The position numbers and the translations under genes are program-made. The notes beneath the pieces are model-generated. The model ran no database searches, was not told the DNA's origin, and was given only the letters and a program-made list of their open reading frames with translations. A stretch of 58,765 nucleotides of DNA from Neisseria sp. (GTDB lineage: Bacteria > Pseudomonadota > Gammaproteobacteria > Burkholderiales > Neisseriaceae), in the NCBI RefSeq assembly GCF_030523955.1, contig NZ_JAUNHL010000010.1, positions 1 through 58,765 of the forward strand, given 5' to 3'. This document shows, piece by piece, positions 8,765 to 28,764 of this stretch. How positions within the stretch are numbered: the first letter of the stretch is position 1; every line of letters starts with the position of its first letter.

Positions 8765-9850
8765 ATGCAAAAAAACACCGTTTTCGTCACCGGTGGCGCC
8801 GGCTTCATTGGCTCCGCAGTGATTCGTCACCTGATTAACAATACCGACGTTACTGTTATTAACATCGATAAATTAACTTATGCCGGCAATCTCCACTCGC
8901 TTGACAGCGTATCAGACAACCCCCGCTATATTTTTTCGCAAACCGACATCTGCGACCGTGCCGCTCTCGACAAACTGTTCGCCGAGCACCAACCCTGCGG
9001 CGTAATGCACTTGGCAGCAGAAAGCCATGTAGACCGTTCAATCGACGGCCCCTCCGCCTTTATCGAAACCAATATCGTAGGCACTTATACCTTGCTGGAA
9101 GCCGCTCGCCAATATTGGAACGGCCTGTCTGAAGAAGACAAAGCAGCCTTCCGCTTCCACCACATTTCCACCGACGAAGTTTACGGCGACCTGCACGGCA
9201 CCGACGACTTGTTCACCGAAACCACTCCTTACGCCCCCAGCAGCCCCTACTCCGCCAGCAAAGCGTCCAGCGACCACTTGGTACGCGCTTGGAACCGCAC
9301 CTACGGCCTGCCTGTCGTGCTGACCAACTGCTCCAACAACTACGGTCCGTTCCACTTTCCGGAAAAACTGATTCCGCTGATGATTCTCAACAGCTTGGCC
9401 GGCAAACCGCTGCCCGTATACGGCGAAGGCAACCAAATCCGCGACTGGCTGTTTGTTGAAGACCACGCCCGTGCACTGTGGGCCGTGTTCACCAAAGCCG
9501 CCAACGGCGAAACCTACAATATCGGCGGCCACAATGAGCGCAAAAACATCGAAGTGGTCAAAACCATCTGCACCATTCTCGACGAATTGCGCCCCGCCGC
9601 CCAAAACCCCAACACACCGAATCTGTCTTCTTACCAAGAACTGATTACCCACGTTACCGACCGCCCCGGCCACGATCACCGCTACGCCATCGATGCAGCC
9701 AAAATCGGCCGTGATTTAGGCTGGAAGCCCGAAGAGACTTTTGAAACCGGTATCCGCAAAACCGTAGAGTGGTACCTCGACAACCAAGACTGGTGGCAAG
9801 CCGTATTGGACGGCAACTACCAAGGCGAACGCTTGGGCTTGAATTCTTAA
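8765..9850 (+). CDS. rfbB: dTDP-glucose 4,6-dehydratase RfbB
   Basis: RfbB converts dTDP-glucose to dTDP-4-keto-6-deoxyglucose. The 361-aa product is an extended SDR with [14 protein letters not shown] near residue 10, [12 protein letters not shown] near 83, STDEVYGDL near 138 and the catalytic [10 protein letters not shown] near 163. It opens an operon-like set rfbB-rfbA-rfbC (27-bp gap to rfbA). An intragenic DUS variant, GGCCTGTCTGAA at 9122-9133, encodes Gly-Leu-Ser-Glu. The next genes rfbA and rfbC are present but the final enzyme rfbD is not in the window. Confidence 0.96.
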
Positions 9851-9877
9851 TATCCACATCTATCGAGGAGAACCCAC

Positions 9878-10750
9878 ATGAAAGGTATCGTTCTGGCCGG
9901 CGGTTCAGGCACCCGCCTCTATCCCATTACCCGCGGCGTTTCCAAACAGCTGCTGCCGATTTATGACAAACCGATGGTTTATTACCCGATTTCCGTATTG
10001 ATGCTGGCAGGCATTCGCGACATTCTGGTGATTTCCACTCCTGATGACATGCCCGGCTATCAGCGCCTGCTCGGCGACGGTTCCGACTTCGGCATCAACA
10101 TCAGCTACGCCATCCAGCCCAGCCCCGATGGCTTGGCACAGGCTTTCCTGATTGGCGAAGAATTTCTCGACGGCGACAGCGCCTGTCTGATTTTGGGCGA
10201 CAACATCTACTTTGGCGAAAGCTTCGGCCGCAAGCTGGAGCAAGCCGCTAAGCGTGAAAACGGCGCCACTGTTTTCGGTTACCAAGTGGCCGACCCGGAA
10301 CGTTTCGGCGTAGTCGAATTTGATGAAAACTTCAAAGCCCTGTCTATCGAAGAAAAACCAGCCAAACCCAAGTCCAACTATGCAGTGACCGGCCTCTACT
10401 TCTACGACAAAACCATTGTCGAAAAAGCCAAACAGGTCAAGCCGTCTGCCCGTGGCGAGCTGGAAATCACCAGCATCAACCAGATGTATTTGGAAGAAGG
10501 TACCTTGAATGTGGAACTGCTCGGTCGCGGCTTTGCCTGGCTCGATACCGGTACCCACGACAGCCTGATGGAAGCCGGCCACTTCGTGCAAACCATCGAA
10601 AGCCGTCAAGGCTTGAAAGTGGCCTGTTTGGAAGAGATCGCCTTCAACAAAGGCTGGCTGAATAAAGAACAACTGGCCGAGAAAATCAAACCGTTGGCCA
10701 AAACCGGTTACGGTCAATATCTGCAACGTCTTCTGGACAGTGCGCAATAA
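9878..10750 (+). CDS. rfbA: Glucose-1-phosphate thymidylyltransferase RfbA
   Basis: RfbA makes dTDP-glucose from glucose-1-phosphate and dTTP. The 290-aa product has the N-terminal nucleotidyltransferase signature [18 protein letters not shown], followed by [25 protein letters not shown] and [20 protein letters not shown]. An AGGAG ribosome site lies just upstream ('tcgaggagaaccc'). It is separated from rfbC by a DUS hairpin, which is unexpected inside an operon. Confidence 0.96.
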
Positions 10751-10752
10751 TA

Positions 10753-10786
10753 TTTTCAGACAGGCATCATAATGCCTGTCTGAAAA
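10753..10786. terminator. DUS inverted pair between rfbA and rfbC
   Basis: Fifteen-bp arms (10753-10767 and 10772-10786) surround a 4-nt loop and are followed by few T residues. It may attenuate rather than fully end transcription, because rfbC and the following genes continue on the same strand. Confidence 0.65.
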
Positions 10787-10804
10787 ACCGAAAGAAAGAG
10801 ATTT

Positions 10805-11341
10805 ATGCAAGTTATCGATACCAAAATTGCAGATGTCAAAATCATCCAACCGAAAGTATTCGGCGACGAACGCGGTTTCTTCTTGGAAACCTTCGAGAAA
10901 AACCGTTATCGCGAATTGCTGAATATTGATTTGGACTTCGTCCAAGACAACCATTCGCGCTCGCAAAAAGGCGTATTGCGCGGTCTGCACTTCCAAACCG
11001 TTAACCCGCAAGGTAAGTTGGTTCGCTGCGTACGCGGCGAAGTATTCGACGTAGCCGTCGACATCCGCCCCGACTCACCCACTTACGGCCAATGGGAAGG
11101 CGTAATCCTCAGCGAAGAGAACAAAACCCAATTTTGGGTACCGCCCGGTCTTGCGCACGGCTTTGTCGTCCTGAGCGATATTGCCGACTTCGAATACAAA
11201 TGCACCGATTATTACAATCCGCAAGCCGAGGGTTGCCTGATTTGGAATGACCCGGCGGTCGGCATCGAATGGCCGATTAGCGATCCCTTGTTGTCAGCCA
11301 AAGACAAACTGGGCAAAACCCTGAAAGAATTGAATTCCTAA
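10805..11341 (+). CDS. rfbC: dTDP-4-dehydrorhamnose 3,5-epimerase RfbC
   Basis: RfbC epimerises dTDP-4-keto-6-deoxyglucose at C3 and C5. The 178-aa cupin has PKVFGDERGFFLETFEK, the active-site region QDNHSRSQKGVLRGLHFQ (catalytic His) and WVPPGLAHGF. Ribosome site 'aaagaaagag' lies upstream. It completes rfbBAC. The same three genes without rfbD are known in region D of meningococcal cps loci. Whether L-rhamnose is made depends on a reductase elsewhere. Confidence 0.95.
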   Translation: MQVIDTKIADVKIIQPKVFGDERGFFLETFEKNRYRELLNIDLDFVQDNHSRSQKGVLRGLHFQTVNPQGKLVRCVRGEVFDVAVDIRPDSPTYGQWEGVILSEENKTQFWVPPGLAHGFVVLSDIADFEYKCTDYYNPQAEGCLIWNDPAVGIEWPISDPLLSAKDKLGKTLKELNS

Positions 11342-11455
11342 TTCATTAAAGCAGCATGACAACCCGCCAAGGCCGGCTTCCCATTCCCTAAATACCCGAA
11401 CCGGCCGACAGCTTCCCTTCATATTTTCATCAAGTAAATAAAGATTGGTAACACC

Positions 11456-12733
11456 ATGATGACACCTGAACAAATCAACTTGGCCGTAATCGGCTTAGGC
11501 TACGTCGGCCTGCCTTTGGCAGTCGAATTCGGCAAAAAACGCCCGGTAGTCGGCTTCGACATCCATCAAGGCCGTATCGAAGCCTTGAAAAAAGGCCACG
11601 ATGCCACTTTAGAGGTAGAAGACGAAGAGCTGGCTTCAGCCAAGCATTTGAGCTACACCTACAATCTGGACGATCTGAAAGCTTGTAACGTATTTATCGT
11701 TACCGTACCTACTCCTATCGACGAGCACAAAAAACCCGATCTGACTCCGTTGGTAAAAGCTTCCGAAACCATCGGTAAAGTACTGAAAAAAGGCGATATC
11801 GTCATTTACGAATCCACCGTTTACCCCGGCGCCACCGAAGAAGACTGCGTTCCCGTTCTGGAAAAAGTATCCGGCTTGAAATTCAACCAAGATTTCTTCG
11901 CCGGCTACAGCCCCGAGCGCATCAACCCGGGCGATAAAGAGCACCGCGTAACCACCATCCGTAAAGTTACTTCCGGTTCCACTCCCGAAGTAGCCGAAGT
12001 AGTCGACAAACTGTATAACGAAATCATTACTGTCGGCACCCACAAAGCCAGCAGCATCAAAGTAGCCGAAGCCGCCAAAGTGATTGAAAACACCCAGCGC
12101 GACCTGAACATCGCCCTGATCAACGAATTGGCGCTGATTTTCAACAAAATGGACATTGACACCGAGTCCGTATTACTGGCAGCCGGCACCAAATGGAACT
12201 TCCTACCCTTCCGTCCGGGCTTGGTCGGCGGTCACTGCATCGGCGTAGACCCCTACTACCTCACCCACAAAGCGCAAAGCATCGGCTATCACCCTGAAAT
12301 CATCTTGGCCGGCCGCCGCCTGAACGACAGCATGGGCGAATACGTAGCTTCCCAGTTGGTAAAATCATTGTTGAAAAAACGCATTCAAGTAGACGGTGCG
12401 AAAATCCTGTTGTTGGGTCTGACCTTTAAAGAAAACTGCCCCGACCTGCGCAACACCAAAGTTGTCGATATCATCAAAGAATTGAAAGAATACAATATCG
12501 AAGTCGATGTATACGATCCTTGGATTGATGCCGAAGAAGCACAACACGAATACGGTATCACCCCGATTGATTTTTTGGAAGACGGCAAATACGACGGTGT
12601 AATTTTGGCTGTGGCACACAAACAGTTCAAAGACATGGGTATCGATGCCATCCGCAAACTGGGCAAACCCGCCCACGTCGTGTATGACCTGAAATATCTG
12701 TTTGCTCCCGAGCAAACCGACTTGCGCCTGTAA
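11456..12733 (+). CDS. wbpO: UDP-N-acetyl-hexosamine 6-dehydrogenase (WbpO/TviB type)
   Basis: The 425-aa product belongs to the UDP-glucose/UDP-ManNAc dehydrogenase family and is very like P. aeruginosa WbpO and Salmonella TviB, which oxidise UDP-GalNAc or UDP-GlcNAc to the uronic acid. Features are [18 protein letters not shown] at the N-terminus, [27 protein letters not shown], and [20 protein letters not shown] with the catalytic Cys. Two adjacent ATGs are possible starts. The adjacent WbpP-like epimerase supports UDP-GalNAcA as the end product. Exact substrate preference cannot be read from the sequence. Confidence 0.9.
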
Positions 12734-12747
12734 TACGGATGGAACTC

Positions 12748-13773
12748 ATGAACGCATACGAAACCATTCAAAAGCAATTGCAAGCAGAACCGAAAAAATG
12801 GCTGATCACCGGCGTAGCCGGTTTCATCGGTTCCAACCTACTGGAAACCCTGTTGAAATTGGATCAAACCGTTGTCGGTTTGGACAACTTCGCCACCGGC
12901 CACCAATACAATCTGGACGAAGTCAAAGGCGAAGTCACACCTGAGCAATGGGCGCGCTTTAACTTCATCGAAGGTGATATCCGCAACGTAGATACCTGCC
13001 ACCAAGCCTGCCAAGGCGTAGACTATGTACTGCACCAGGCAGCGCTCGGCTCGGTTCCCCGTTCGATCAACGATCCGATTACCACCAACAGCGCCAACAT
13101 CGACGGTTTCCTCAACATGTTGGTTGCCGCCCGCGACGCACAAGTGAAAAGCTTCACTTACGCCGCCAGTTCCTCCACTTACGGCGACCATCCCGGCTTG
13201 CCTAAAGTGGAAGACCGCATCGGCAAACCGTTGTCGCCCTATGCCGTTACCAAATATGTGAACGAGCTGTACGCCGAAGTTTTTGCCCGTACCTACGGCT
13301 TCAATTGTATCGGTCTGCGCTACTTTAACGTATTCGGCAAACGCCAGGACCCGAACGGTGCTTATGCGGCGGTGATTCCGAAGTGGACTTCAGCCATGAT
13401 CAAAGATGAAGACTTGTTCATCAACGGCGACGGCGAAACCAGCCGCGACTTCTGTTTCATTGAGAATACCGTTCAAGCCAACCTGCTGGCCGCAACTGTA
13501 CAAGCGGAAGAAGCACGCAATCAGGTATACAACGTCGCCGTTGGCGGCCGTACAACTCTGAACCAGCTGTTCTCCTACATCCGCGAGAGCTTGGGCGATA
13601 ACGGTATCCGGTATGAGAAAGATGCGATTTACCGCGACTTCCGCGCCGGCGATGTACGCCATTCCCAGGCAGATGTCAGCAAAGCCAACAACTTGCTGGG
13701 CTACGACCCGCAATACACCATCGAGCAAGGCATTAAAAAAGCCATGCCGTGGTATGTCGGTTTTTTGAAGTAA
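12748..13773 (+). CDS. wbpP: UDP-GlcNAc C4-epimerase (WbpP/TviC type)
   Basis: An extended SDR that interconverts UDP-GlcNAc and UDP-GalNAc (and their uronic acids). From ATG 12748 it is 341 aa, the length I recall for WbpP; an ATG three codons upstream is also open. Signatures are [20 protein letters not shown] near residue 18, [33 protein letters not shown], and the catalytic [12 protein letters not shown]. It lies 14 bp behind the dehydrogenase, so the pair is co-transcribed. With that gene it supplies UDP-GalNAcA to the glycan. Confidence 0.92.
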
Positions 13774-13799
13774 ATATACTTTAGTAAGCAGTAAAAGTG

Positions 13800-13999: not shown

Positions 14000-15277
14000 T
14001 TGAAACTCGCACATATTAGCTGGAACCTATTCGGATTGGTCTTACCTTTGCTGATTGCAATGGTTTCCCTCCCCCTCCTAATTTCCAGCATTGGTAATGA
14101 ACGCTTCGGCCTCTTAGCTCTTGCCTGGGGTATGATGAGCTACGCAGGTATTCTTGATCTTGGTATCGGACGTGCGCTGACCCAAATGGTCTCTCGCTTG
14201 AGAGGTCAGAAACAAACCCAAGAGGTTCCCGTTGTTTTGGCTACGGCCTCACGCATTACCATGACCGCAGGCCTTATCGGCAGCACCGCCATTGTTATTT
14301 TTGCCTTATTCGGAGGCGCCCAATTCGTAAAAACCGAACACATCCCTCTGGATGAAATCCGCAACTCGATTATTTTATTAGCCATCGCCTTACCGGCCCA
14401 AGCAATGAGTGCTACCTACCGCGGAATGAATGAAGCATATTTAAACTTCAAAGGCATCAGTATTTTGAGGGTAATATTGGGTACGCTCAATTTTGCAGGC
14501 CCTTTACTAATTTCTTTTTTCAGTACAAATCTAGCGTGGCTAATTGCCAGTTTAGTCGCCAGCCGCGTAGCAGCTTTATTGGTTTTCCGCCATCTGGCTT
14601 TAAGTTGTCTGAAAAACAATGAACCAGACTACACGCCAGCCGACTTGGTTTACTCCAAACAAACTGCCAAAACCTTATTCTCATTTGGCGGATGGGTAAC
14701 AGTGAGCAGCATTATCAGCCCTATGATGGTTCAAATGGACCGTTTTATGATTGCCAGCATGATTTCAGCAGCGGCAGTTACCGTGTATGTTGTTCCATAT
14801 GAATTGGTTGCCCAAAGCCTGATTTTAGTAGGTGCGATTTCATCTGTTATCTTTCCGACATTAACCCGTTTGATGCAAGAGCAACCGCAAGAGTGGTTAT
14901 CGTATTTTCAAACATGGTTGGTTCGCGTCGGCGGTATGATGCTTTTAGTGGCGCTGTTGATGATACTTTTAATGCCTTACATATTGGATATTTGGCTACA
15001 AGGTAATTTTGACCCTACCTCTGTTACCGTAGGACAAATTCTCTGTTTGGGCGTATTCTCCAACTCGGTAGGTGCTATGTATTACGCTTTACTGCATGCC
15101 CGTGGTAAGGCACATATTACAGCCAAAATTCATATGTTTGAATTACCGCTTTATCTAACCTTCCTTTATTTTGCTCTGCAACATTTTGGTGTTATCGGTG
15201 CTGCAATGGCTTGGTCCGCCAGAATGGCTTTAGATACAATTTTATTATCTCTAAATGCCAGAAGATTAAAATTTTAA
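14000..15277 (+). CDS. wzx: Lipid-linked oligosaccharide flippase (Wzx/PglF-like)
   Basis: The 425-aa integral membrane protein has many hydrophobic helices typical of the MOP/MATE polysaccharide flippases. It opens NLFGLVLPLLIAMVSLPLLI, followed by GLLALAWGMMSYAGILDLGIGRALTQ, a common Wzx block. Role: moving undecaprenyl-PP-linked repeat units across the inner membrane. The start is a TTG at 14000 with an 'agagag' ribosome site nine bases upstream; no earlier ATG fits. The position before glycosyltransferases and pgl genes also fits PglF, the flippase of Neisseria protein glycosylation; sequence alone does not separate the two. Confidence 0.85.
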   Translation: MKLAHISWNLFGLVLPLLIAMVSLPLLISSIGNERFGLLALAWGMMSYAGILDLGIGRALTQMVSRLRGQKQTQEVPVVLATASRITMTAGLIGSTAIVIFALFGGAQFVKTEHIPLDEIRNSIILLAIALPAQAMSATYRGMNEAYLNFKGISILRVILGTLNFAGPLLISFFSTNLAWLIASLVASRVAALLVFRHLALSCLKNNEPDYTPADLVYSKQTAKTLFSFGGWVTVSSIISPMMVQMDRFMIASMISAAAVTVYVVPYELVAQSLILVGAISSVIFPTLTRLMQEQPQEWLSYFQTWLVRVGGMMLLVALLMILLMPYILDIWLQGNFDPTSVTVGQILCLGVFSNSVGAMYYALLHARGKAHITAKIHMFELPLYLTFLYFALQHFGVIGAAMAWSARMALDTILLSLNARRLKF

Positions 15278-15356: not shown

Positions 15357-16529
15357 ATGAATAATTTAGTAATTTGTTTCTTGGTACTAATCGGCGTGAT
15401 GATGCCCACATCAACAGACGGGGTCATGCAGGCTGGTCGGATGGTTAACATGACCATGGCTCTGTTACCACTGTACGGCTATTTGTTACTCAAACAAAAG
15501 AAATACGACCCCGTTAACTTATTGATTGCAGTAGGGGTTGGTGTTCTTCTGACCTTGTTAACCATAACATCCCCATACCCTACTTATCGGTATGGTAATG
15601 GTTTGATGTTTATTGTGTTGTTTTCTTTATGTTTACTTAATAGCAATAAAAATCCGTTAGATCTTAAACCCTACTTAAGAACTTTATTCATTTTAAATAT
15701 ATTCTTTGCTGTTTTATCTTTCTTGATTATTTTCGATGTCCCTTTGGGTGTGGATTTTATTTACAACAATTATCAGGCCTTTTATCCTGAGCTGATTCCC
15801 AATATGTTATACCAGTCAAAGCCTGTAACGGTTTTTGGCACCCACTCTATTGCCGGTTTCTATAATTTTCTATTTTTCGTTACCAATTTGGCTTTATATA
15901 AATACACCAAGCAGATTTGGTATTTACTATTCGCCATTTGCTACATGGTATTTTTGTTCTGGCTGCAATCTTCAACGTCGCTTGTATTCTTCCTGATTGC
16001 GTTTATCGCATTGCAGTTTGAACTTTATAAAGCCCAGCGTTTTTTATTTTTCTTAACGCTGATCATCGAGTTATTCGCGTTGGTTCTGATCTATCAGACA
16101 ATTGGCGAAGTAATTGGTCAAACCCTTGACCATTTATTCTCCGAAGGAAATGGTTTGGGCGGACGCTATGCTGAAGGTGGTAATTTGGCCAACAACCTAA
16201 ACTATGTAATGAACAATCCTTTGGGAGGTATTGGATTTGGCTATACAACCGATTTTATGTTCGCAGATTCCGGCTATCTGGAATATGCCCTACGGGGTAG
16301 TATTCTCACCACGCTAGCAGTGCTGATTTCATTCAGCCGTTATATTTTCAGAAATGTCACTACCTCTTACCGGTATGTATTTCTGTTTGCTTACTTAGCA
16401 TTTGAAATCGGGTTCTCTAATATGCTTTATTACCGGACATTCGGCATCACTTTGTTTCTTATTGCCCTGTTTAATCAGATGCAACGCCATGAACAGTCCA
16501 AACTCAACACAGAGGCACATAAAATATGA
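15357..16529 (+). CDS. wzy: Polysaccharide polymerase (Wzy-like)
   Basis: A 390-aa protein with about ten or eleven predicted membrane helices and a longer extracytoplasmic loop around residues 125-165. Short motifs common in Wzy proteins are visible: GTHSIAGFYNFLFFV and NPLGGIGFGY. Low sequence conservation is normal for this family, so the call rests on topology and context (next to Wzx, glycosyltransferases and wza-wzb-wzc). It is strongly AT-rich with many T runs, consistent with transfer. It overlaps the next gene by four bases (ATGA at 16526). Confidence 0.75.
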   Translation: MNNLVICFLVLIGVMMPTSTDGVMQAGRMVNMTMALLPLYGYLLLKQKKYDPVNLLIAVGVGVLLTLLTITSPYPTYRYGNGLMFIVLFSLCLLNSNKNPLDLKPYLRTLFILNIFFAVLSFLIIFDVPLGVDFIYNNYQAFYPELIPNMLYQSKPVTVFGTHSIAGFYNFLFFVTNLALYKYTKQIWYLLFAICYMVFLFWLQSSTSLVFFLIAFIALQFELYKAQRFLFFLTLIIELFALVLIYQTIGEVIGQTLDHLFSEGNGLGGRYAEGGNLANNLNYVMNNPLGGIGFGYTTDFMFADSGYLEYALRGSILTTLAVLISFSRYIFRNVTTSYRYVFLFAYLAFEIGFSNMLYYRTFGITLFLIALFNQMQRHEQSKLNTEAHKI

Positions 16530-17473
16530 TCGATATTGTTTTCGTAAACTGGAACGCCGGGAAGTTATTGCAGGACGCCGTTGCCAGCATCATCAAATAC
16601 CATTCAGGCTTAGTGAGCAGTACCATTATTGTGGATAACAATTCTTCCGATAACTCCATTGCTTTGGTTGAAGAATTGGGTACCGACTTTCCGTTTGAAT
16701 TGAAAATTATCAAAAACGATACCAATAACGGTTTTGGCGCAGCCTGCAACCAAGGGGCTGCCGCAGGCAATGCCAAATATATTCTGTTTCTCAACCCCGA
16801 TGCCCAGTTATTCGAACACTCTTTAAGCGTGCCCTATAACTATATGGAACGCCCGGAAAACCAAGGAGTTGGTATTTGCGGCATACAATTGATAGAGGAA
16901 GATGGTCACGTCGCCCGCAGTTGCACGCGTTTCCCTTCGCTGAAAACGTTTACCGTCAATGCATTAGGATTAAACAAACTGCCTTTCTCCACCTTCAAAT
17001 CCATGCACATGCACATGGGCGACTGGGATCATTTGAGCACACGTGAAGTCGATCAAGTCATTGGTGCTTTTTACTTTATGCGCCGCAACTTATTCGAACA
17101 ACTGCGCGGTTTTGACGAACGATTCTTTGTATATTTTGAAGATCTAGATTTAGCCTACCGCACAAAACAAGCCGGCTATAAAAGCATGTATTTAGCTGAC
17201 ACCCAAGCTTTCCATGCCGGCGGGGGAACTTCCAGCCAAGTGAAAGCTACCCGTCTATTTTATTCTCTGCGCAGCCGGTTAATTTACAGCTTTACCCACA
17301 TGTCCAAACTTGAGGCCATCGGAATTACTTTAGTAACATTAATTGTCGAGCCAATTTCCCGTACGGTATTAAGCCTGATGAAAGGCTCAGTAGCTGATGT
17401 TAAAAACACTTGGGCCGGATACAGCATGCTGTGGAAAGCACTCCCGGCTATTCTGAAAGGACAAACCCGATGA
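16526..17473 (+). CDS. Family 2 glycosyltransferase (rhamnosyltransferase-like)
   Basis: A 315-aa GT-A fold enzyme of the COG1216 type, which includes rhamnosyltransferases such as WbbL. Visible motifs are VFVNWNAGKLL, VDNNSSDNSIAL (nucleotide site), NNGFGAACNQGAA, the metal-binding FLNPDAQ, and FDERFFVYFEDLDLAYR, which carries the probable catalytic acidic pair. A hydrophobic C-terminal stretch (about residues 260-295) may attach it to the membrane. It overlaps wzy upstream and the next glycosyltransferase downstream (ATGA), so the three are translationally coupled. Donor and linkage are unknown. Confidence 0.85.
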   Translation: MIDIVFVNWNAGKLLQDAVASIIKYHSGLVSSTIIVDNNSSDNSIALVEELGTDFPFELKIIKNDTNNGFGAACNQGAAAGNAKYILFLNPDAQLFEHSLSVPYNYMERPENQGVGICGIQLIEEDGHVARSCTRFPSLKTFTVNALGLNKLPFSTFKSMHMHMGDWDHLSTREVDQVIGAFYFMRRNLFEQLRGFDERFFVYFEDLDLAYRTKQAGYKSMYLADTQAFHAGGGTSSQVKATRLFYSLRSRLIYSFTHMSKLEAIGITLVTLIVEPISRTVLSLMKGSVADVKNTWAGYSMLWKALPAILKGQTR

Positions 17474-18537
17474 GAGTCCTGATGCTTACCAAATATGGTC
17501 AGCAAGGTGCCTCTTCACGCTTGCGTACCATACAATACCTGAGCTGGTTCGAGCAGGCCGGCATTCAATGCGACGTTTTCCCACTCATCAGCGATGAGGC
17601 CTTGAAAGCCAAGTACAACAAACAGTCTTATAACAGCAGTGAGTTAAGACAGGCCTATTGGAACCGTATCCGTTTACTGCTTTCCAACAAAAATCAATAC
17701 AGTTTGATTTGGATTGAGAAAGAAGCCTTACCATGGACTCCCGCTTGGTTTGAAAAACTATTGTTGTCCGGCATCCCTTATGTACTTGATTACGACGATG
17801 CACTATTTCACAACTACGACATGCACCGCCTGCCCATCGTACGCAAAATATTCGGCAAACGTCTTGATAAATTAATGGTAGGTGCCAGTCTTGTGGTTTG
17901 CGGCAATTATTATTTGGCCGATCGGGCCAAACATGCCGGTGCACGCTGGGTAGAAATCATCCCCACCGTAATTGATATTACCCGTTATCATGCCAGCGAA
18001 CAAAAAGCTCGCGAAGACAAACCGACTGTAGTTTGGATCGGTTCACCCTCTACCGCGAAATACGTGAAAGAAATCGCTCGCCCGCTGGCCGATCTTAACC
18101 GCCAAGTACCTTTTAAATTGCGCATTATTGGTGCCAATCTGAGTATCGACGGTGTCGACATCGAAAATCTACCTTGGACAGAAGACACCGAAGTACCATT
18201 AGTGGCCGAGAGTGACATTGGTATCATGCCACTGCCTGATACGCCGTGGACCAACGGCAAATGTGGTTATAAATTAATCCAATACATGGCATGCGGCCTG
18301 CCCGTAGTCGGATCAGATGTGGGTGCCAATAAAAATATCGTTGACGAAGGCGCCAACGGATTTCTCGTCAATAGCGATGAGCAATGGGTAGAAGCCCTGA
18401 AAACTCTGTTACAAAGCCCCGAATTACGCAAGCAATACGGCCATCAGGGACGGATCGATGCAGAAGAACGTTTCTGTGTACAAAAAACGGCGCCGCACTT
18501 GATTGAATTATTGCGCAAAGTTGCAACCGCTGCCTAA
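17470..18537 (+). CDS. Glycosyltransferase, GT-B fold (GT1/GT4 type)
   Basis: A 355-aa product from ATG 17470 (MRVLMLTKYGQQGASSRLR), which overlaps the previous stop by four bases; an upstream in-frame start is rejected. The C-terminal half has the donor-binding pattern VWIGSPSTAKYVKEI, PLPDTPWTNGKCGYKLIQYM and ACGLPVVGSDVGANKNIV, typical of GT-B retaining transferases. The N-terminal half is little conserved. The substrate is unknown; it presumably adds one sugar of the repeat unit. A DUS pair follows (18542-18623). Confidence 0.85.
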   Translation: MRVLMLTKYGQQGASSRLRTIQYLSWFEQAGIQCDVFPLISDEALKAKYNKQSYNSSELRQAYWNRIRLLLSNKNQYSLIWIEKEALPWTPAWFEKLLLSGIPYVLDYDDALFHNYDMHRLPIVRKIFGKRLDKLMVGASLVVCGNYYLADRAKHAGARWVEIIPTVIDITRYHASEQKAREDKPTVVWIGSPSTAKYVKEIARPLADLNRQVPFKLRIIGANLSIDGVDIENLPWTEDTEVPLVAESDIGIMPLPDTPWTNGKCGYKLIQYMACGLPVVGSDVGANKNIVDEGANGFLVNSDEQWVEALKTLLQSPELRKQYGHQGRIDAEERFCVQKTAPHLIELLRKVATAA

Positions 18538-18541: not shown

Positions 18542-18623
18542 TTCAGACAGGCTTCCATTTAACTTACATAACCAAGTTATATTGATTACTGACAATAGTC
18601 CATATTGGAACCATGCCTGTCTG
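18542..18623. terminator. Distant DUS inverted pair after the wzx-wzy block
   Basis: TTCAGACAGGC at 18542 and ATGCCTGTCTGAA ending near 18623 can pair, extended by TTCCA/TGGAA with a small bulge. The loop is about 45 nt. It forms the right DUS boundary of the wzx-wzy-GT block. Confidence 0.5.
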
Positions 18624-19854: not shown

Positions 19855-20469
19855 ATGTCTGACTTGCTTAAACGTGCTTTTGATATCATCGCCTCCCTGA
19901 TAGGCCTGATTGTCTTATCGCCGGTTTTATTGATTGTGGCCATTTTGGTACGTAAAAACCTCGGTTCTCCCATCTTGTTTCGCCAAGTACGTCCCGGCAT
20001 AGATGGCAAACCGTTTGAAATGGTGAAGTTCCGCTCTATGCGCGATGCCATCGCAAAAGATGGCACCCCGCTACCGGACAACGAACGGTTGACACCTTTT
20101 GGCAAAGCCCTGCGTTCCACCAGCCTTGACGAACTACCCGAGCTTTGGAATGTCTTAAAAGGTGATATGAGCTTAGTCGGCCCTCGCCCATTATTAATGG
20201 ATTACTTACCTCTTTACAACAAAGAGCAGTACCGCCGCCACGAAGTCCGCCCAGGCGTAACAGGTTGGGCGCAAGTCAATGGCCGCAATGCAATTTCATG
20301 GGAAGAAAAATTCAAGCTGGATGTCTGGTATGTTGATAATCGATCATTTTGGCTGGATTTAAAAATCCTGTTTCTGACCATTAAAAAAGTATTCATTCGC
20401 GAAGGCATTACCGCACAAGGCGAACCTACCTCGAATGCATTTAAAGGAACAAAAGAAAATGAAAACTAA
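19855..20469 (+). CDS. Initiating phosphoglycosyl transferase (PglC/PglB N-domain type)
   Basis: A 204-aa small monotopic transferase that moves a sugar phosphate from UDP-sugar to undecaprenyl phosphate. It has the re-entrant helix near residues 8-32 (FDIIASLIGLIVLSPVLLIV), then SPILFRQVRPGIDGKPFEMV, KFRSMRDA, the Asp-Glu dyad in SLDELPELWNVLKGDMSLVG, and RPGVTGWAQVNGRNAISWEE. It corresponds to the N-terminal half of meningococcal PglB/PglB2. It overlaps the following ATP-grasp gene by 11 bases in another frame. Probable substrate: UDP-2-acetamido-4-amino-trideoxyhexose or its acylated form. Confidence 0.9.
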   Translation: MSDLLKRAFDIIASLIGLIVLSPVLLIVAILVRKNLGSPILFRQVRPGIDGKPFEMVKFRSMRDAIAKDGTPLPDNERLTPFGKALRSTSLDELPELWNVLKGDMSLVGPRPLLMDYLPLYNKEQYRRHEVRPGVTGWAQVNGRNAISWEEKFKLDVWYVDNRSFWLDLKILFLTIKKVFIREGITAQGEPTSNAFKGTKENEN

Positions 20470-21430
20470 CATCCTGATTTTATCAGCCGGTCGACGCGTT
20501 GAGTTAGTACAGGATTTCAAAACTGAAGCAACAAAATTCTCTGATGAAATTAAAATATACTGCACGGACATCAACCCACATATGTCTTCCGCCTGTCATA
20601 TGGCAGATGGAGCATTTAGCGTTACCCGTATTGATGATCCCAACTATATCGATGAAATTTTTGCATTGGCGCAAAAAGAAAATATTGGTCTGATTATCCC
20701 AACCATCGATACCGAATTACAAAAGTTAGCTGACAATCGTGAACGCTTTGCCGCCGCAGGAATCCACATCATTATTTCTGATTCTGATTTGATCAGCTTA
20801 TGCAGAGACAAGCGCCGTACAACCGCACTATTCCAACAATATGGCATCAACAGCCCCGAAATCTACAGACGAGATGATATTACCTTCCCGTGCTTTGCCA
20901 AACCCTATGATGGCAGCCGAGGTATCGGTGCACAGGCAGTTAATGATCCAAGTGAGCTGACCCCCGAATTACTTAATGATCCGAAAATAATGTTTTGCCA
21001 GCTTATCGACATTCAAAATACTTTTAAAGAATTTACTGTCGATATTTATTACGACAAAAACGGTGTTGCCAAATGTATCGTACCTCGGGAACGCTTGGAG
21101 GTTCGCTCAGGAGAGGTCAGCAAAGGAGCAACCCGCCGCAACTATCTTTATGATTTACTGGTTACGCAACTAGGCAAACTTGATGGCGCACGCGGATGCC
21201 TTACCACACAATTTTTTTATCATGACGAAAGCCAAACCATATACGGGGTAGAAATCAATCCCAGATTTGGCGGAGGTTTCCCCCTTACTTATGCTAGCGG
21301 CGCCAATTACATCAATTGGCTAATTCGTGAATATTTGTACAACGAAGAAATCCCCTTCTTCGATCAATGGAAAAACGATTTAATTATGCTGCGTTACGAC
21401 GCTAAGGTATTGGTCCACGAGCATGATTAA
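20459..21430 (+). CDS. ATP-grasp ligase (PglB2 C-domain type)
   Basis: A 323-aa ATP-grasp protein from ATG 20459 (MKTNILILSAGRRVELVQ), preceded by 'aaagga' about nine bases upstream. The ATP-binding FAKPYDGSRGIGA is near residue 146 and the metal-binding GVEINPRFGGGFPLTY near 270. In meningococcal PglB2 a C-terminal ATP-grasp domain replaces the acetyltransferase of PglB and yields a glyceramido-acetamido trideoxyhexose. Here that domain appears as a separate overlapping gene behind the transferase and before pglC/pglD. I infer it acylates the 4-amino sugar, probably with glycerate. Confidence 0.82.
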   Translation: MKTNILILSAGRRVELVQDFKTEATKFSDEIKIYCTDINPHMSSACHMADGAFSVTRIDDPNYIDEIFALAQKENIGLIIPTIDTELQKLADNRERFAAAGIHIIISDSDLISLCRDKRRTTALFQQYGINSPEIYRRDDITFPCFAKPYDGSRGIGAQAVNDPSELTPELLNDPKIMFCQLIDIQNTFKEFTVDIYYDKNGVAKCIVPRERLEVRSGEVSKGATRRNYLYDLLVTQLGKLDGARGCLTTQFFYHDESQTIYGVEINPRFGGGFPLTYASGANYINWLIREYLYNEEIPFFDQWKNDLIMLRYDAKVLVHEHD

Positions 21431-21610: not shown

Positions 21611-22786
21611 ATGCTGAACACCTCATTGGCTCCCTGGCCGAGCTTTACTCAAGAAGAAGCGGATGCCGTACAAAATATCCTGCTCTCCAATAAAGTCAAT
21701 TACTGGACCGGTAACGAATGCCGCGAATTTGAAAAAGAATTTGCCCAATGGGCGGGCACAGAATATGCAATTGCCTTAGGCAACGGTACTTTAGCACTGG
21801 ATGTAGCCTTAAAAGCCATGAACATCGGCCCAGGTGATGACGTGATTGTAACCTCCCGCACCTTCCTTGCTTCAGCATCAGCCATTGTTACCGCTGGAGC
21901 CAATCCCATATTTGCCGATGTTGATTTAAACAGTCAAAACATTTCGGCAGAAACTATCGAAGCTGTTTTAACCCCAAACACCAAAGCCATCATTGTGGTT
22001 CATTTAGCCGGCATGCCCGCAGAGATGGACGACATCATGGCTTTAGCAGAAAAGCACAAATTGTGGGTTATTGAAGACTGCGCCCAAGCTCACGGTACGC
22101 GCTACAAAGGCAAGTCCGCCGGTTCCATCGGCCACGTCGGCGCATGGTCTTTCTGTCAAGACAAGATTATGACCACCGGCGGCGAAGGCGGCATGGTTAC
22201 CACCAACGATAAAGAATTGTGGTCGAAAATGTGGTCTTACAAGGACCACGGCAAAAGCTATGATGCTGTTTACAACCGCCAACACCCCCCTGGTTTTCGT
22301 TGGTTGCACGAAAGTTTCGGTACCAACTGGCGCATGATGGAAATGCAAGCTGCCATCGGTCGCATCCAATTGCGCCGCATGGCCGATTGGACCGCAAAAC
22401 GCCAAGCCAATGCAGCACGACTAGAAGAAATATTGAAACAGTTCGACTCCATCCGTACGATTGAAGTACCAGATTACATTGAGCATGCCCAATACAAATA
22501 TTATGCTTTCGTCAAGCCTGAAAAGCTGGCTGAAGGTTGGAGTCGTGATCGCATCGTAGACGAGCTCAACGCTCGTAAAGTACCCTGCTTCCAAGGCAGC
22601 TGCTCGGAAGTCTACTTGGAAAAAGCCTTTGACAACACTTCGTGGCGCCCGCACGAACGCTTGAAAAATGCGGTTGAGCTGGGTGATACCAGCCTAATGT
22701 TCTTGGTACATCCTACCATTACCAAAGAACAAATGGATTTCTGCTGCACTCATCTGAAAGAGGTTCTGTCACAAGCGACAGCCTGA
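21611..22786 (+). CDS. pglC: PLP-dependent sugar aminotransferase PglC-like (DegT/DnrJ/EryC1)
   Basis: A 391-aa enzyme that aminates C4 of the UDP-4-keto-6-deoxy sugar. Family blocks are YWTGNECREFEKEFA, IALGNGTLALDVALKA, VIEDCAQAHGTRYKGKSAGS, and the PLP-lysine region WSFCQDKIMTTGGEGGMVTT near residues 182-201. The downstream dehydratase makes its substrate, matching the pglC-pglD order of Neisseria. A true intrinsic terminator follows (22792-22848), so pglD may have its own promoter. Confidence 0.88.
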   Translation: MLNTSLAPWPSFTQEEADAVQNILLSNKVNYWTGNECREFEKEFAQWAGTEYAIALGNGTLALDVALKAMNIGPGDDVIVTSRTFLASASAIVTAGANPIFADVDLNSQNISAETIEAVLTPNTKAIIVVHLAGMPAEMDDIMALAEKHKLWVIEDCAQAHGTRYKGKSAGSIGHVGAWSFCQDKIMTTGGEGGMVTTNDKELWSKMWSYKDHGKSYDAVYNRQHPPGFRWLHESFGTNWRMMEMQAAIGRIQLRRMADWTAKRQANAARLEEILKQFDSIRTIEVPDYIEHAQYKYYAFVKPEKLAEGWSRDRIVDELNARKVPCFQGSCSEVYLEKAFDNTSWRPHERLKNAVELGDTSLMFLVHPTITKEQMDFCCTHLKEVLSQATA

Positions 22787-22791
22787 CAACA

Positions 22792-24998: not shown

Positions 24999-26129
24999 AT
25001 GAGAAAACTGACTATCATCAGCCTGTCTGTCATTATAGCCGCCTCCGGTTGTACCGTAATACCGGGCTCCGGCCTGCCTACAGGCAACAAAACGATTGTC
25101 TACAATAATAATGATGAACCCGGCAATATCCAATCACAGCTAGATAGCCGTGTAAGCATACATCCAATTACGTTTTCGCTAGTTCAAAGCATGGCCGAAC
25201 CACCCAAGATCAGCCAACACAATCAGGCGCTTGAACAGCAAAAGCGCAACTATAACTACCGTTTAGGTAAAGGTGATGTCCTGAATATTGTTGTCTGGTA
25301 CCAACCAGACATGACGACCCAAGGTTCTTCTTCCGGCCGTTCACAAGCTCAACAGGTTAGCAACGGCAGTTGGGTAAGCGATCGCGGTACCATTTTCTAT
25401 CCTTTGGTAGGAGAGTTAAAAGTAGAAGGCAAAACTATTGATCAGGTACGCTCCGAATTGGATAGTCGCCTAAGAAAATATATCAAAAATCCGCAAATAG
25501 ATTTAACAGTTTCTGAATTCCGCTCACAAAAAGTAAGTGTTTCCGGATCTGTCCGCCAAGCCGGTCAATTACCGATTACTAACGTACCATTAACATTAGT
25601 TGATGCTATTGACCTTGCCGGAGGAACTACTGACACCGCAGACCCACAAAACGTCAAATGGACTCATAAAGGTGTAGAGCGAACTATCTCTTTGGAGGAT
25701 TTGCGTGCTAACGGTGATCTGTCCCAAAACTATTTATTGAGCGATGGTGATATCGTTTATGTGCCATCTAATGTAAACAACCGAGTACATGTGATGGGTG
25801 AAGTAACCCGCCAAAACAGTTTGCCGATGCCTCCTAAAGGTATGAGCCTAACCGATGCCATTAGCAGTTCAGAAGGTATGAACCAGATGGTAGCCAATGC
25901 CACCGGGGTATTTGTTATCCGTAATGTACCAAGTGATTACGATAAACCTATTCATGTTTACCAACTGAATCTGAAAGATGCCAGTGCTTATGCCTTAGGC
26001 ACACAATTTAAACTAAAAACTGACGATGTGGTTTATATAACTGCTGCACCGATCGCACGCTGGAACCGTGTTGCTACCCAAGCTATCGGAGCCATTAACA
26101 GTGCTGCCGCAGTAAATAATTCTTTCTAA
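24999..26129 (+). CDS. wza: Outer membrane polysaccharide export lipoprotein Wza
   Basis: A 376-aa lipoprotein from ATG 24999, with 'aaagga' upstream; a longer in-frame reading (MTAWVLHTH) is rejected because it hides the signal. Signal MRKLTIISLSVIIAASGC places the lipidated Cys at 18. The polysaccharide-export domain (YRLGKGDVLNIVVWYQPDM near residue 88, YPLVGELKVEGKTIDQV) and SLBB-type repeats (VSVSGSVRQAGQLPITNVPL, VHVMGEVTRQNSLPMP) follow. It is expected to form the octameric outer membrane channel. It is the first gene of wza-wzb-wzc. Confidence 0.93.
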   Translation: MRKLTIISLSVIIAASGCTVIPGSGLPTGNKTIVYNNNDEPGNIQSQLDSRVSIHPITFSLVQSMAEPPKISQHNQALEQQKRNYNYRLGKGDVLNIVVWYQPDMTTQGSSSGRSQAQQVSNGSWVSDRGTIFYPLVGELKVEGKTIDQVRSELDSRLRKYIKNPQIDLTVSEFRSQKVSVSGSVRQAGQLPITNVPLTLVDAIDLAGGTTDTADPQNVKWTHKGVERTISLEDLRANGDLSQNYLLSDGDIVYVPSNVNNRVHVMGEVTRQNSLPMPPKGMSLTDAISSSEGMNQMVANATGVFVIRNVPSDYDKPIHVYQLNLKDASAYALGTQFKLKTDDVVYITAAPIARWNRVATQAIGAINSAAAVNNSF

Positions 26130-26156
26130 ACTCTGATACCTTCACTGTTTGAACTT

Positions 26157-26603
26157 ATGCGATATGACAAAATATTAACAGTATGTTCGGGCAATATTTG
26201 TCGCTCCCCGTTAGCGGAACATCTGCTAAAACCGCAACTGCCTAACTGTTTTGTCGCTTCCGCCGGAGTTACTGCTTGGGTTGGACAAGGGGTCGACCTC
26301 AAGGTGATAGATGCAGCCAAACGGCATCATCTGAACATAAGCGGGCTCAGCAAGCATAATGCCAAACAGCTTACTCCGCAAATGTGTATTTTTGCTGATT
26401 TGATTTTAGTAATGGAAGAAAAACACATTGCCGCCGTAGCAGCTATTCAGCCGTTGGCACGCAGTAAAATAATGTTATTGGGGCAATGGACTGGGCAAAG
26501 GAATATTCCCGATCCCTATCGGAAAGATCAAGCTTTTTTCGATAACGTTTATCAACAAATTGCGGATGCCTGCAACATTTGGGCGAAAAAACTATCTCAT
26601 TAA
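26157..26603 (+). CDS. wzb: Low molecular weight protein-tyrosine phosphatase Wzb
   Basis: A 148-aa phosphatase that dephosphorylates Wzc and so resets its assembly cycle. The P-loop VCSGNICRSPLAEHLL (C-x5-R) is at residues 9-24 and the general-acid Asp lies in IPDPYRKDQAFFDNVYQQI near 120. Length is typical. It sits between wza and wzc with short gaps (27 and 34 bp). Confidence 0.94.
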   Translation: MRYDKILTVCSGNICRSPLAEHLLKPQLPNCFVASAGVTAWVGQGVDLKVIDAAKRHHLNISGLSKHNAKQLTPQMCIFADLILVMEEKHIAAVAAIQPLARSKIMLLGQWTGQRNIPDPYRKDQAFFDNVYQQIADACNIWAKKLSH

Positions 26604-26637
26604 TTAGATTTACATTTTTATTTAGAGAATAATTAAT

Positions 26638-28764
26638 ATGGCTAACAAATCCCATCCTGTCCAACAGGAATTTGACTTGCAACAACTTGCCGGCATCTTG
26701 CGTCACCGCAAGACTCAAATCGGTACAGCTATTTTAGCAGGGGCTATCTTAGGTGGTCTTTATGGATTCGTCGCTACGCCTACTTATAAAGCTAATGCAT
26801 TAATCGAAGTACGAGGCGGGCAAAACCAAATTCTAACTGATGTCAACAGCCCCGTTAACAATATGCAGCCTACCTCTGCTAATGCCGAGGTTGATTTGGC
26901 ACGTTCTCGTGCAGTTCTTGGGCAAACTGTAGACAATCTACATCTGGATATTGGCATTGAGCCAAAAAAATCTTTCTTAGGTAATTTATTCTCGGGTAAT
27001 TCCGCAGAAGCGCAAGCCATTACCGTTCAAACACTTTCAGTACCGGAAAATTGGGAAAATACACCGATGTTACTGACCGTATTGGATGAGAAAAGCTATA
27101 AACTGGCTTTGCCCGATGGCAAAGAAGTCAATGGTCGAGTAGGCGAGACTGTTAAACCTTCGGCTGACATTACCATTTTGGTTTCACAACTTGCTGCACC
27201 AGTCGGTTCTACGTATTCGATTACCAAATTTTCCAAGTTGAGCGCCATTGATAAGCTTAGTGCTAACCTATCTGTGGACAGTAAAGGCATGGGTGTTCCT
27301 TTGTTGGAGTTCAGCTACACAGGTACCGATCGCCAAGAAATTCAATCCACACTGAGCCATATTGTTAATAACTACGTCAATTTAAGCAAAAACCGTGATG
27401 TTCAAATAGCAAGTAACGGCTTAGCTTTCATCAATGAAGAATTACCGCGTTTGAAACAATCATTGCAGGATGCGGAAAACCGCTTGAATGCCTACCGTGT
27501 CCGTTCTGGATCTGTTGACGTACCAACAGAAGCACGTACCGCAGTACAAGATCTGTCGAATATCGAAACCCAGATTACCGCCTTAAAAGCAGAAGAAGCC
27601 GGTATGTCTGCGATTTATACAAAAGATCACCCTGATTACGTTGCTTTGACTGATCGCTTAAGAGTATTGGAGCAATCGCGCGATAATATCAACCGACAAA
27701 TTTCCAATTTGCCTAATACCGAGCAAGAAGTTATCCGATTAACCCGCGATGTAGAGACAAATCAAGCTACCTACGTACAATTGCTGAGCAAACAACAAGA
27801 AATGAACATCTTGAAAGCCAGCTCACAAGGAAATGTACGCGTAATTGACCAAGCTGCTGCTGCTGAAAAGCCGTTTAAACCGCAAAAACCGATTCTGGTT
27901 TTATTGGGCGCATTAGGTGCCGGTATTCTTGCAAGCGCTTGGTATATTTTCCGCGCCCTGAGCCGGCCAACCCTTAAATTCTCTGAAGAAATTAAGGATT
28001 TGGGCTATAACCTGATTTCCAGCATTCCTGTTTCTATTGCGCAAAGCAAAGAAGATGCACGCTTTAAGCGCTCACATAGCGGCAAAAACAACCGCCCAAA
28101 CTATTTGCTGGCCTACAGTCACCCTAATGATATAGCTGTAGAAACGTTGCGTGCCCTGCGCACTAACCTGCACTTTTCAACCATTGATAAGAAGAGCCCG
28201 ACCATCATGATTACCAGCACCACTCCAGGTGTAGGCAAATCCTTTGTATCTTCCAACTTGGCCGCAGTAACTGCTCAGGCGGGTCAGAAAGTATTGTTAA
28301 TTGATGCGGACATGCGTTTAGGTACATTGCATCATACTTTCGGCGTACCTGCAGAAGACGGCCTGTCTGAATTACTTCAAGGTTCTATCAACTTTGTTGA
28401 CGCGGTAAAACGCACCGAAATTGGCAATTTGGATTTGATTACCTGCGGCCACTCTCCGCAAACACCTTCCGAATTGCTGATGAGCCAAGAATTCATCCAA
28501 TTGCTGGAAAATGCACGAGAGAAGTATGACCAAATCATCATCGATACTCCACCCGTATTGGCCGTAACCGATAGTACCGTTATCGGAAAATTGTCGGATG
28601 CGACTTTGCTGATTACCCGTTACAACTACTCTTCTGCCGACGAACTGGGCGAAAGTTACTCGCGTCTGCGTGGTAACGGTATTGAAATTGAAGGCGTTAT
28701 TTTCAACTGTATTGAGAAAAATGCCCGAAACTACTACCAATATCAGGAATATACTCCGCAGTAA
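26638..28764 (+). CDS. wzc: Tyrosine autokinase and co-polymerase Wzc
   Basis: A 708-aa BY-kinase. The N-terminal Wzz domain has one membrane helix near residues 29-49; the periplasmic part contains coiled-coil stretches (about 260-370). The second helix, ILVLLGALGAGILASAWYIF, is near 420. The cytoplasmic kinase has Walker A TTPGVGKSFVSSNLA (near 528), Walker A' LLIDADMRLG and Walker B IIIDTPPVLAVTD. The C-terminal tail NARNYYQYQEYTPQ carries the tyrosine cluster phosphorylated in this family. It controls chain length and couples Wzy polymerisation to Wza export. An intragenic DUS variant (28360-28371) encodes GLSE. Confidence 0.95.
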   Translation: MANKSHPVQQEFDLQQLAGILRHRKTQIGTAILAGAILGGLYGFVATPTYKANALIEVRGGQNQILTDVNSPVNNMQPTSANAEVDLARSRAVLGQTVDNLHLDIGIEPKKSFLGNLFSGNSAEAQAITVQTLSVPENWENTPMLLTVLDEKSYKLALPDGKEVNGRVGETVKPSADITILVSQLAAPVGSTYSITKFSKLSAIDKLSANLSVDSKGMGVPLLEFSYTGTDRQEIQSTLSHIVNNYVNLSKNRDVQIASNGLAFINEELPRLKQSLQDAENRLNAYRVRSGSVDVPTEARTAVQDLSNIETQITALKAEEAGMSAIYTKDHPDYVALTDRLRVLEQSRDNINRQISNLPNTEQEVIRLTRDVETNQATYVQLLSKQQEMNILKASSQGNVRVIDQAAAAEKPFKPQKPILVLLGALGAGILASAWYIFRALSRPTLKFSEEIKDLGYNLISSIPVSIAQSKEDARFKRSHSGKNNRPNYLLAYSHPNDIAVETLRALRTNLHFSTIDKKSPTIMITSTTPGVGKSFVSSNLAAVTAQAGQKVLLIDADMRLGTLHHTFGVPAEDGLSELLQGSINFVDAVKRTEIGNLDLITCGHSPQTPSELLMSQEFIQLLENAREKYDQIIIDTPPVLAVTDSTVIGKLSDATLLITRYNYSSADELGESYSRLRGNGIEIEGVIFNCIEKNARNYYQYQEYTPQ

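Follow-up and report, generated by a model that had tools for sequence, protein, structure and literature searches.

Does a single sugar locus of a Neisseria build a surface polymer, supply protein glycosylation, or do both? This question is raised by positions 8765-28764 of contig NZ_JAUNHL010000010.1 (assembly GCF_030523955.1, Neisseria sp.), within the 58,765-nt stretch (positions 1-58,765) that was analysed as a whole and is called the window here. Between ribD and queA, the window holds 17 same-strand (+) open reading frames, none of them interrupted, which a preliminary description made from the sequence had read as a Wzy-dependent exporter combined with sugar genes of the pgl type. The locus is quite probably a Wzy-dependent surface-polysaccharide operon (capsule or exopolysaccharide), the unit of which may also feed PglL/PglO. 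Family calls were made against the curated cut-offs of Pfam and NCBIfam, and solved structures were brought in through PDB matches. The survey comprised 46 genomes of the genus and 37 other genomes of the family; labels with G and L denote survey genomes and loci, and G000 is the genome of the window.

The gene set named in the preliminary description, from wzx and wzy through the three glycosyltransferases, the initiating transferase, pglC, and pglD to wza-wzb-wzc, was present on the + strand with frames uninterrupted, and its reading as an export system joined to pgl-type genes was borne out by family and solved-structure matches; rmlBAC, tviB-tviC, and the ATP-grasp ligase gene of a putative split pglB2 had been left unnamed. 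Curated cut-offs were passed by RmlB, RmlA, RmlC, and TviB (NCBIfam) and by Wzx, the three glycosyltransferases, the initiating transferase (Bac_transf), PglC (DegT), PglD (Polysacc_synt_2), and Wzb (LMWPc) (Pfam). The putative TviC keeps its name as the best match, despite a score below the cut-off of its own model. The components of a Wzy system that were found are a Wza channel, a Wzc that has a Wzz domain, Walker motifs, and a tail of Tyr residues, together with Wzb, and a Wzx with an initiating transferase. Wza has Poly_export and SLBB domains above the Pfam cut-offs and the solved Wza as its best PDB match (2.5e-98), Wzc has Wzz/GNVR/AAA_31 above the cut-offs and the solved Wzc as its best PDB match (4.1e-144), and the initiating transferase is closest to N,N'-diacetylbacillosaminyl-1-phosphate transferase (2.7e-68). 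The catalytic motifs of these proteins were retained: DE in the phosphoglycosyltransferase, CX5RS and DPY in Wzb, and Walker A/A'/B in Wzc with a Tyr tail of four Tyr within the last 25 residues. A pattern search for a lipobox in Wza gave no match, the Cys after MRK...AASG being merely lipobox-like. PglC shared 79-91% identity with its counterparts in 13 Neisseria loci among the matches listed.

Group-1 Wza, counted at an E value of at most 1e-100, was found in 30 of the 46 genus genomes (wza+) and in 5 of the 37 other family genomes. A pglD match lay -4 to 144 bp from wza in all 30 wza+ genomes of the genus, and pglD matches were present in 45 of the 46. The system had been described as a trait of this species; it is present here and is common in the genus, with wza adjoining pglD. 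In the five genomes with Wza outside the genus, pglD adjoined in one (G054), lay elsewhere in two, and gave no match at the threshold in two. Of the 30 wza+ genomes, 29 have a Wzy homologue at the locus (24 of a common type, 5 of the window type); the remaining genome, G024, has its locus on a 9.7-kb contig, and the common-type Wzy of G050 is spread over two frames. ribD was seen in 11 and queA in 8 of the 30 wza+ stretches, judgement being confined to these stretches, which were up to 20 kb long, or 26 kb in the case of the window. Among named species, wza follows pglD in N. wadsworthii, N. dentiae, N. weixii, N. sicca, N. iguanae, and three further records; there was no wza in the stretch examined in N. 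gonorrhoeae, N. polysaccharea, N. bergeri, and N. viridiae, and in N. elongata subsp. elongata neither pglD nor wza adjoins pglC. The gonococcal locus examined retains the protein-glycosylation part alone. Ten loci from the 16 genus genomes without wza (wza-) were judged (G009, G013, G017, G018 with pglD on a separate contig, G023, G025, G026, G028, G031, and G047), and the other six genomes (G012, G021, and G038-G041) were left out as dispersed, fragmentary, or without the locus. The transferase and PglC were found in all ten judged loci and wzx in nine, and a homologue of either known Wzy type in none, the search covering these two types at the locus only; a third Wzy type would escape it, because the two known types do not match one another. 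The group-specific part is the rmlBAC-tviBC-wzx-wzy-glycosyltransferase set, here including the split pglB2.

Ratios of nonsynonymous to synonymous substitution rates (dN/dS) were taken from six pairs of close relatives, a gene counting wherever both members of a pair had it called; wza and wzc each gave 0.02-0.10, wzb 0.07-0.13, and wzy 0.06-0.20. Such low values argue against dead genes, a case that had been raised for wza-wzb-wzc; the selection is that seen in relatives. Frame breaks occur in a few relatives (wzx and wzy of G050 and wzc of G022), where assembly quality may play a part.

In some N. meningitidis, PglB2 is one protein with both a transferase and an ATP-grasp domain, and glyceramido-acetamido-trideoxyhexose (GATDH) takes the place of di-N-acetylbacillosamine (diNAcBac), as described in PMC6959607 and PMC11130364. 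Both PglB2 domains are present in the window as two overlapping genes, the likely ATP-grasp start at 20459 overlapping the transferase stop codon in a different frame. Of the 83 family genomes, 25 have the ATP-grasp gene, and all of these belong to the genus of the window (25/46); 24 carry it as a frame of its own that could start ahead of the transferase stop, and in one (G011) the two are fused into 527 residues. An outside set of 67 non-Neisseria loci was also compared, with DegT aminotransferases of 66-77% identity (drawn from the top 80 of 166 matches after removal of 13 Neisseria); 64 of the 67 had a transferase match, 63 a dehydratase match, and four an ATP-grasp gene between the transferase and DegT. 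The pair in the window is predicted to be a split pglB2: what follows the transferase is an ATP-grasp gene and no acetyltransferase gene, and the first sugar is on that ground predicted to be GATDH. The earlier proposal of a first sugar like that of pilin glycosylation is corrected accordingly, with GATDH as the predicted sugar in place of diNAcBac. In one locus outside Neisseria (L138, Actinobacillus sp. GY-402), the transferase, ATP-grasp, PglC, PglD, Wza, and Wzc stand in the same order as in the window.

The chemistry, the polymer, and the sharing that we infer from these genes would run as follows. PglD and PglC would produce UDP-4-amino-4,6-dideoxy-GlcNAc, the ATP-grasp ligase would add glyceramide onto N4, and the transferase would pass GATDH phosphate to undecaprenyl phosphate. 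The three glycosyltransferases would then extend it by some three sugars, probably including N-acetylgalactosaminuronic acid (GalNAcA) from TviB and TviC, after which Wzx would flip the unit, Wzy would polymerise it, and Wzc, Wzb, and Wza would provide length control and export. The flipped unit could be a substrate of PglL/PglO too, giving a single unit on proteins, and the gonococcus and some relatives, with the locus lacking wzy-wza-wzb-wzc, would be left with protein glycosylation alone. As to GalNAcA, TviB, TviC, and the last glycosyltransferase (18661-19791) recur in many Acinetobacter loci. Identity of this glycosyltransferase was 44-59% in the 20 loci of the outside set having both this enzyme and a TviC of at least 60%, and 37-39% in five loci with a TviB of at least 60% and no such TviC; as exceptions, it reached 50-56% in L110, L128, and L156 with no such TviC in the stretch, and L136 has such a TviC and no match to the glycosyltransferase. 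These exceptions noted, the enzyme may add GalNAcA to the first sugar, because it tends to go with tviC in the outside loci.

For the sharing of one precursor, the initiating enzymes and the ligases were counted. PglL_A proteins were found in all 46 genus genomes. Among the 30 wza+ genomes, 28 have a single PF02397 initiating transferase, and PF00953, the other initiating family, which includes the essential MraY, has one member in 45 of the 46 genus genomes. In the 28 single-transferase genomes, with one PF02397 and one PF00953 protein each, initiation of the polymer unit and of the protein glycan would fall to the same transferase, and the two pathways there probably start from one lipid-linked sugar, barring an unknown initiator. 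For the genome of the window, the idea of one shared precursor in every wza+ genome was dropped because of its three PF02397 transferases (window, contig 47, and contig 50). The one on contig 47 is of a 407-residue type and lies beside rmlD, a flippase-like protein, and two glycosyltransferases. On contig 50 (L210:5431-7319), the third initiating transferase stands beside a DegT aminotransferase at the contig end, the remaining locus being off the contig. A PglL-type ligase is present on contig 44, as two tandem genes (L211:7635-9569 and 9637-11484) where the other 45 genus genomes have one match each, and PglL_A matches nowhere else in the genome. The assembly also holds two gyrB genes, 88% identical as proteins and with different neighbours (window 40010-42403; contig 65, L284:1109-3499); no parE was found at E 1e-100, both matches of G000 at that threshold being gyrB. 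The sequence TGCCTGTCTGAA, the wadDUS dialect of DNA uptake sequence described for N. wadsworthii (PMC3630211), was found in 47 copies. It is carried by both gyrB contigs and predominates in all of these contig stretches, with a few AG- or muc-type copies in those of contigs 7 and 47. The second gyrB could reflect a mixed assembly or be a true second gyrB.

The rival that survives best is that of separate pathways in the species of the window, in which the window locus would make the polymer, and the transferase of contig 47 or 50 with a dedicated PglL would make the protein glycans. The three PF02397 transferases, the two tandem PglL genes, and the company of rmlD, flippase-like protein, two glycosyltransferases, and transferase on contig 47 are what it would predict; with a second gyrB, however, some of these genes could belong to another organism, and 28 of the 30 wza+ genomes make do with one PF02397 transferase, and we consider such a division rather unlikely. 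The sharing of a precursor put forward in the preliminary description is a plausible idea that probably applies to the majority of relatives carrying the locus (28 wza+ genomes out of 30); for the genome of the window, with its three PF02397 transferases, two PglL, and second gyrB, it is only possible. Published glycoproteomics agree with sharing: protein glycans of the structures GATDH-Hex-diNAcHexA-HexNAc (N. oralis CCUG26878) and GATDH-Hex-HexNAcA-HexN (N. mucosa ATCC19696), both type strains, are given in PMC6959607, the S2 legend of which lists an 'O-antigen ligase like' ORF, HAD, and formyltransferase at pgl genes. It is plausible that each of these GATDH-started tetrasaccharides is a single repeat unit, the strains being compared by glycan alone.

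Several points weigh against a Wzy-dependent operon of this kind. The wzy identity is the weak member of the set: its single Pfam match is PF04932 below the threshold (20.8 bits against a cut-off of 31.7), and it may be called a probable polymerase from this, from its position, and from homologues of 49 and 52% identity in the same place in L095 and L096. The protein had no match in the PDB, and an AlphaFold model from the three-row alignment of the window, L095, and L096 was too poor for use (mean predicted local distance difference test 41.9). A profile of the window Wzy gave no significant match to 13 of the 22 called Wzy of the other Neisseria type, nor to 11 PglL, from shallow alignments by which homology is neither backed nor ruled out; by family, wzy is not the PglL-type ligase that had been considered as an alternative, PglL_A being confined to contig 44. 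The four nearest relatives carry the same cluster without the ATP-grasp gene, and an HAD gene, present at the locus in 23 of the 25 genomes that have ATP-grasp, is missing from the window locus, contig 45 having a copy of 50% identity. For these two reasons, the first sugar is named with some uncertainty. In the window locus, no match at 1e-8 was found to gt5, gt9, and gt14, the glycosyltransferases that precede the transferase in other Neisseria and whose identity as PglH/PglG is taken from position. No PF04932 proteins above the cut-off were found in the genome of the window besides the two PglL, and the Wzi search matched 0 of 46 genus genomes and 0 of 14 control genomes; because of these two results, a capsule, a free exopolysaccharide, and a ligated O-antigen fit alike, and the polymer itself is a prediction from the genes.

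A second export route is present in the assembly. The search for pglL and ctrABCD proposed in the preliminary description found both outside the locus, the former on contig 44 as above and a ctrABCD-type ATP-binding cassette (ABC) exporter on contig 7. CtrB was above the cut-off in 29 of the 46 genus genomes, 23 of them among the 30 wza+, a distribution that agrees with the ABC capsules in non-pathogenic species described by Clemence et al. 2018 (PMC6202450), in the main text of which 'wza' does not occur.

It is unlikely that the locus builds a lipopolysaccharide (LPS) O-antigen, with Wzc as a chain-length regulator and a WaaL-type ligase loading lipid A-core. This would follow the account of Stein et al. 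for N. sicca 4320, an LPS of which has a disaccharide repeat and where the locus is one of two regions proposed for LPS (PMC3078933); there, however, the second region is unique to 4320, and both regions are linked to the LPS by homology only. The window locus carries Wza and Wzb, and the only PF04932 proteins above the cut-off are the two PglL. To our knowledge, O-antigen export needs neither Wza nor Wzb. Protein glycosylation only, with wzy-wza-wzb-wzc as remnants or mostly unproductive, is very improbable, for although the same core genes form the established pgl core locus (PMC6959607) and the gonococcus and others carry the set without these four, the four are uninterrupted here with motifs kept, have low dN/dS in relatives, and are present or absent as a group in the judged loci.

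The features of the locus are collected in the table.

Table. Features of the polysaccharide locus and its flanks (positions of the window)
Feature	Coordinates	Strand	Evidence and remarks
ribD, left flank	7492..8604	+	TIGR00326 above cut-off
rmlB, dTDP-glucose 4,6-dehydratase	8765..9850	+	TIGR01181 515 bits, cut-off 365
rmlA, glucose-1-phosphate thymidylyltransferase	9878..10750	+	TIGR01207 517 bits, above cut-off
rmlC, dTDP-4-dehydrorhamnose 3,5-epimerase	10805..11341	+	TIGR01221 above cut-off
tviB-type UDP-GlcNAc 6-dehydrogenase (to UDP-GlcNAcA)	11456..12733	+	NF011729 683 bits, cut-off 592
tviC-type UDP-GlcNAcA 4-epimerase (to UDP-GalNAcA)	12739..13773	+	NF011728 best match, 536 bits, under cut-off 760; 64-78% identity to Acinetobacter copies
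wzx flippase (pglF position)	14000..15277	+	PF01943 (Polysacc_synt) 67.5 bits, above cut-off
Probable wzy polymerase	15357..16529	+	Sub-threshold PF04932; position; homologues in same place in L095, L096; no PglL_A match
Glycosyltransferase, Pfam family 2	16526..17473	+	PF00535
Glycosyltransferase, group 1	17410..18537	+	PF13692/PF00534; TTG at 17410, true start probably further downstream
Glycosyltransferase, group 1	18661..19791	+	PF00534; may add GalNAcA to first sugar
Initiating phosphoglycosyltransferase, short type, like PglB N-domain, 204 residues	19855..20469	+	PF02397 (Bac_transf) 229 bits; PDB match
ATP-grasp ligase, like PglB2 C-domain, proposed glyceramide ligase	20459..21430	+	PF21360 92 bits, above cut-off; NF009405 380 bits, just under cut-off 390; open frame from 20435
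pglC (Neisseria name), sugar aminotransferase, DegT	21611..22786	+	PF01041 326 bits
pglD (Neisseria name), UDP-GlcNAc 4,6-dehydratase type, 637 residues	22968..24881	+	PF02719 (Polysacc_synt_2) 426 bits
wza, outer-membrane export protein	24999..26129	+	NF011658 413 bits, above cut-off; open frame from TTG 24897, start 24999 chosen
wzb, low-molecular-weight tyrosine phosphatase	26157..26603	+	PF01451 (LMWPc); CX5RS and DPY motifs
wzc, tyrosine autokinase and co-polymerase	26638..28764	+	TIGR01007 above cut-off; Wzz/GNVR/AAA_31
Inverted DNA uptake sequence pair directly past wzc, possible terminator	28787..28813	.	+ copy 28787, - copy 28802
queA, right flank	29040..30080	-	TIGR00113 above cut-off

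The rmlD gene that completes the rml set lies on contig 47 of the same assembly (TIGR01214 above the cut-off). The G+C content of 1-kb windows was 0.37-0.49 at about 14-29 kb, 0.53-0.57 before 8 kb, and 0.47-0.58 after 29 kb. The wadDUS copies and the named relatives of the locus support the genus label Neisseria. Uptake sequences, or copies one letter shorter, lie in the gaps and at the end of the operon (10755-10773, 13801, 18542-18614, 19802, and 28787-28802); some are inverted pairs and may serve as terminators.

Both halves of the locus were found in print under different names. Stein et al. 2011 described the locus of N. sicca 4320 and other commensal Neisseria as a putative LPS cluster missing in pathogens (PMC3078933). 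Like the window, it has in order a UDP-glucose dehydrogenase, translocase, Wzy, glycosyltransferases, initiating transferase, and carbamoyl-phosphate-synthase-like gene, followed by HAD, formyltransferase, a 'pleiotropic regulatory protein', an epimerase, Wza, Wzb, and Wzc; the 'pleiotropic regulatory protein' is taken here as PglC and the epimerase as PglD. The two clusters differ in the central wzx-wzy-glycosyltransferase set and in rmlBAC/tviBC, and HAD and formyltransferase are off the window locus. The Neisseria pgl core locus pglF-G-H-B/B2-C-D of Hadjineophytou et al. 2019 (PMC6959607) shares with the window the succession of flippase, transferase, PglC, and PglD as well as the PglB2 domains; in the window, PglB2 is split over two overlapping genes, and wzy-wza-wzb-wzc stand at the locus as well. 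The word 'pgl' does not occur in the text of Stein et al. 2011 (PMC3078933), nor 'wza' in the main text of Hadjineophytou et al. 2019 (PMC6959607). On our reading of the published gene order, the LPS cluster and the pgl core locus are one locus. No literature joining Neisseria pgl genes with wza was found in open-licence PMC, a search that most subscription journals fall outside, and the words Neisseria, pglC, and wza occurred together there in Acinetobacter papers only.

The nearest known parallel is the K locus of Acinetobacter baumannii, which likewise has Wzx, Wzy, Wza-Wzb-Wzc, an initiating transferase, and trideoxyhexose genes, and where one K unit is established to serve both the capsule and PglL protein glycosylation (PMC6333632); sharing is experimental there and would be deduced in Neisseria. 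In loci of other Acinetobacter species, identities were 63-78% for TviB, 64-78% for TviC, up to 59% for the last GT4 glycosyltransferase, 62-69% for the transferase, and 68-74% for PglC; unlike in the window, wza and wzb, where in the stretch, are on the opposite strand. The export genes resemble those of E. coli group 1 capsule and colanic acid, with Wza and Wzc close to the solved proteins and Wzb present, and the initiating sugar and transferase type differ. The meningococcal-type ctrABCD capsule, also in the assembly, is a separate locus with a separate export mechanism.

The history of the locus was followed on a tree of a single gene, gyrB, from 50 genomes; G050, in which the gyrB match is broken, was omitted, and the counts of states do not include G038-G041, whose completeness is low. 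Five outgroup genomes had been picked for having Wza, so the root state is biased, and the outgroups do not fall on one side of a branch. The tree has at least six changes of the wza state and three of the fused transferase-acetyltransferase (PglB). This fusion was found in 8 of the 15 wza- genomes with a transferase, versus 0 of the 30 wza+ (G040, a partial match in a 374-residue frame, being counted as not fused). On the tree, two independent pairs on supported branches set fusion against wza absence (median p 0.5, not significant), and the association is a lead, not a result. In G025 (L221:9412-11274), a 620-residue frame joins the PglC aminotransferase (9418-10590) to an acetyltransferase (10599-11222), which is not the fusion seen in PglB. 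The wza- rows that include the gonococcal assembly and two groups that are mainly wza+ part at a fork that the tree does not resolve, within a larger, mostly wza+ set of branches, and the wza- rows around that assembly are not one supported clade; the deepest genus branch (G025, G038, G040, and G041) is without wza. Loss of wza around the gonococcal rows is plausible. Change could have gone either way, because the deepest branch lacks wza, the outgroups were chosen for wza, and the gonococcal rows are not one clade. We give about an even chance to the wider proposal that the pgl core of the gonococcus and its relatives is a Wzy operon that shed wzy-wza-wzb-wzc, many of these genomes fusing the transferase to the enzyme that modifies N4, and that in commensals with the whole operon PglO and Wzy draw on one undecaprenyl-linked oligosaccharide, protein glycan being opposed to polymer.

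Both halves were already known separately, as was the bifurcated scheme in A. baumannii. Joining the two printed accounts, of an LPS cluster and of a pgl core, may give a simple origin for the protein glycosylation locus of the pathogens. On this view, many commensal Neisseria would, like A. baumannii, use one lipid-linked unit for polymer and protein alike. Mutants of commensals in pglB, pglC, or pglD may then lose a surface polymer in addition to protein glycans, and their colonisation phenotypes would be confounded. Such phenotypes have been reported for pglB and pglC of N. musculi (PMC9140248) and would be open to this confounding if the export genes are present there.

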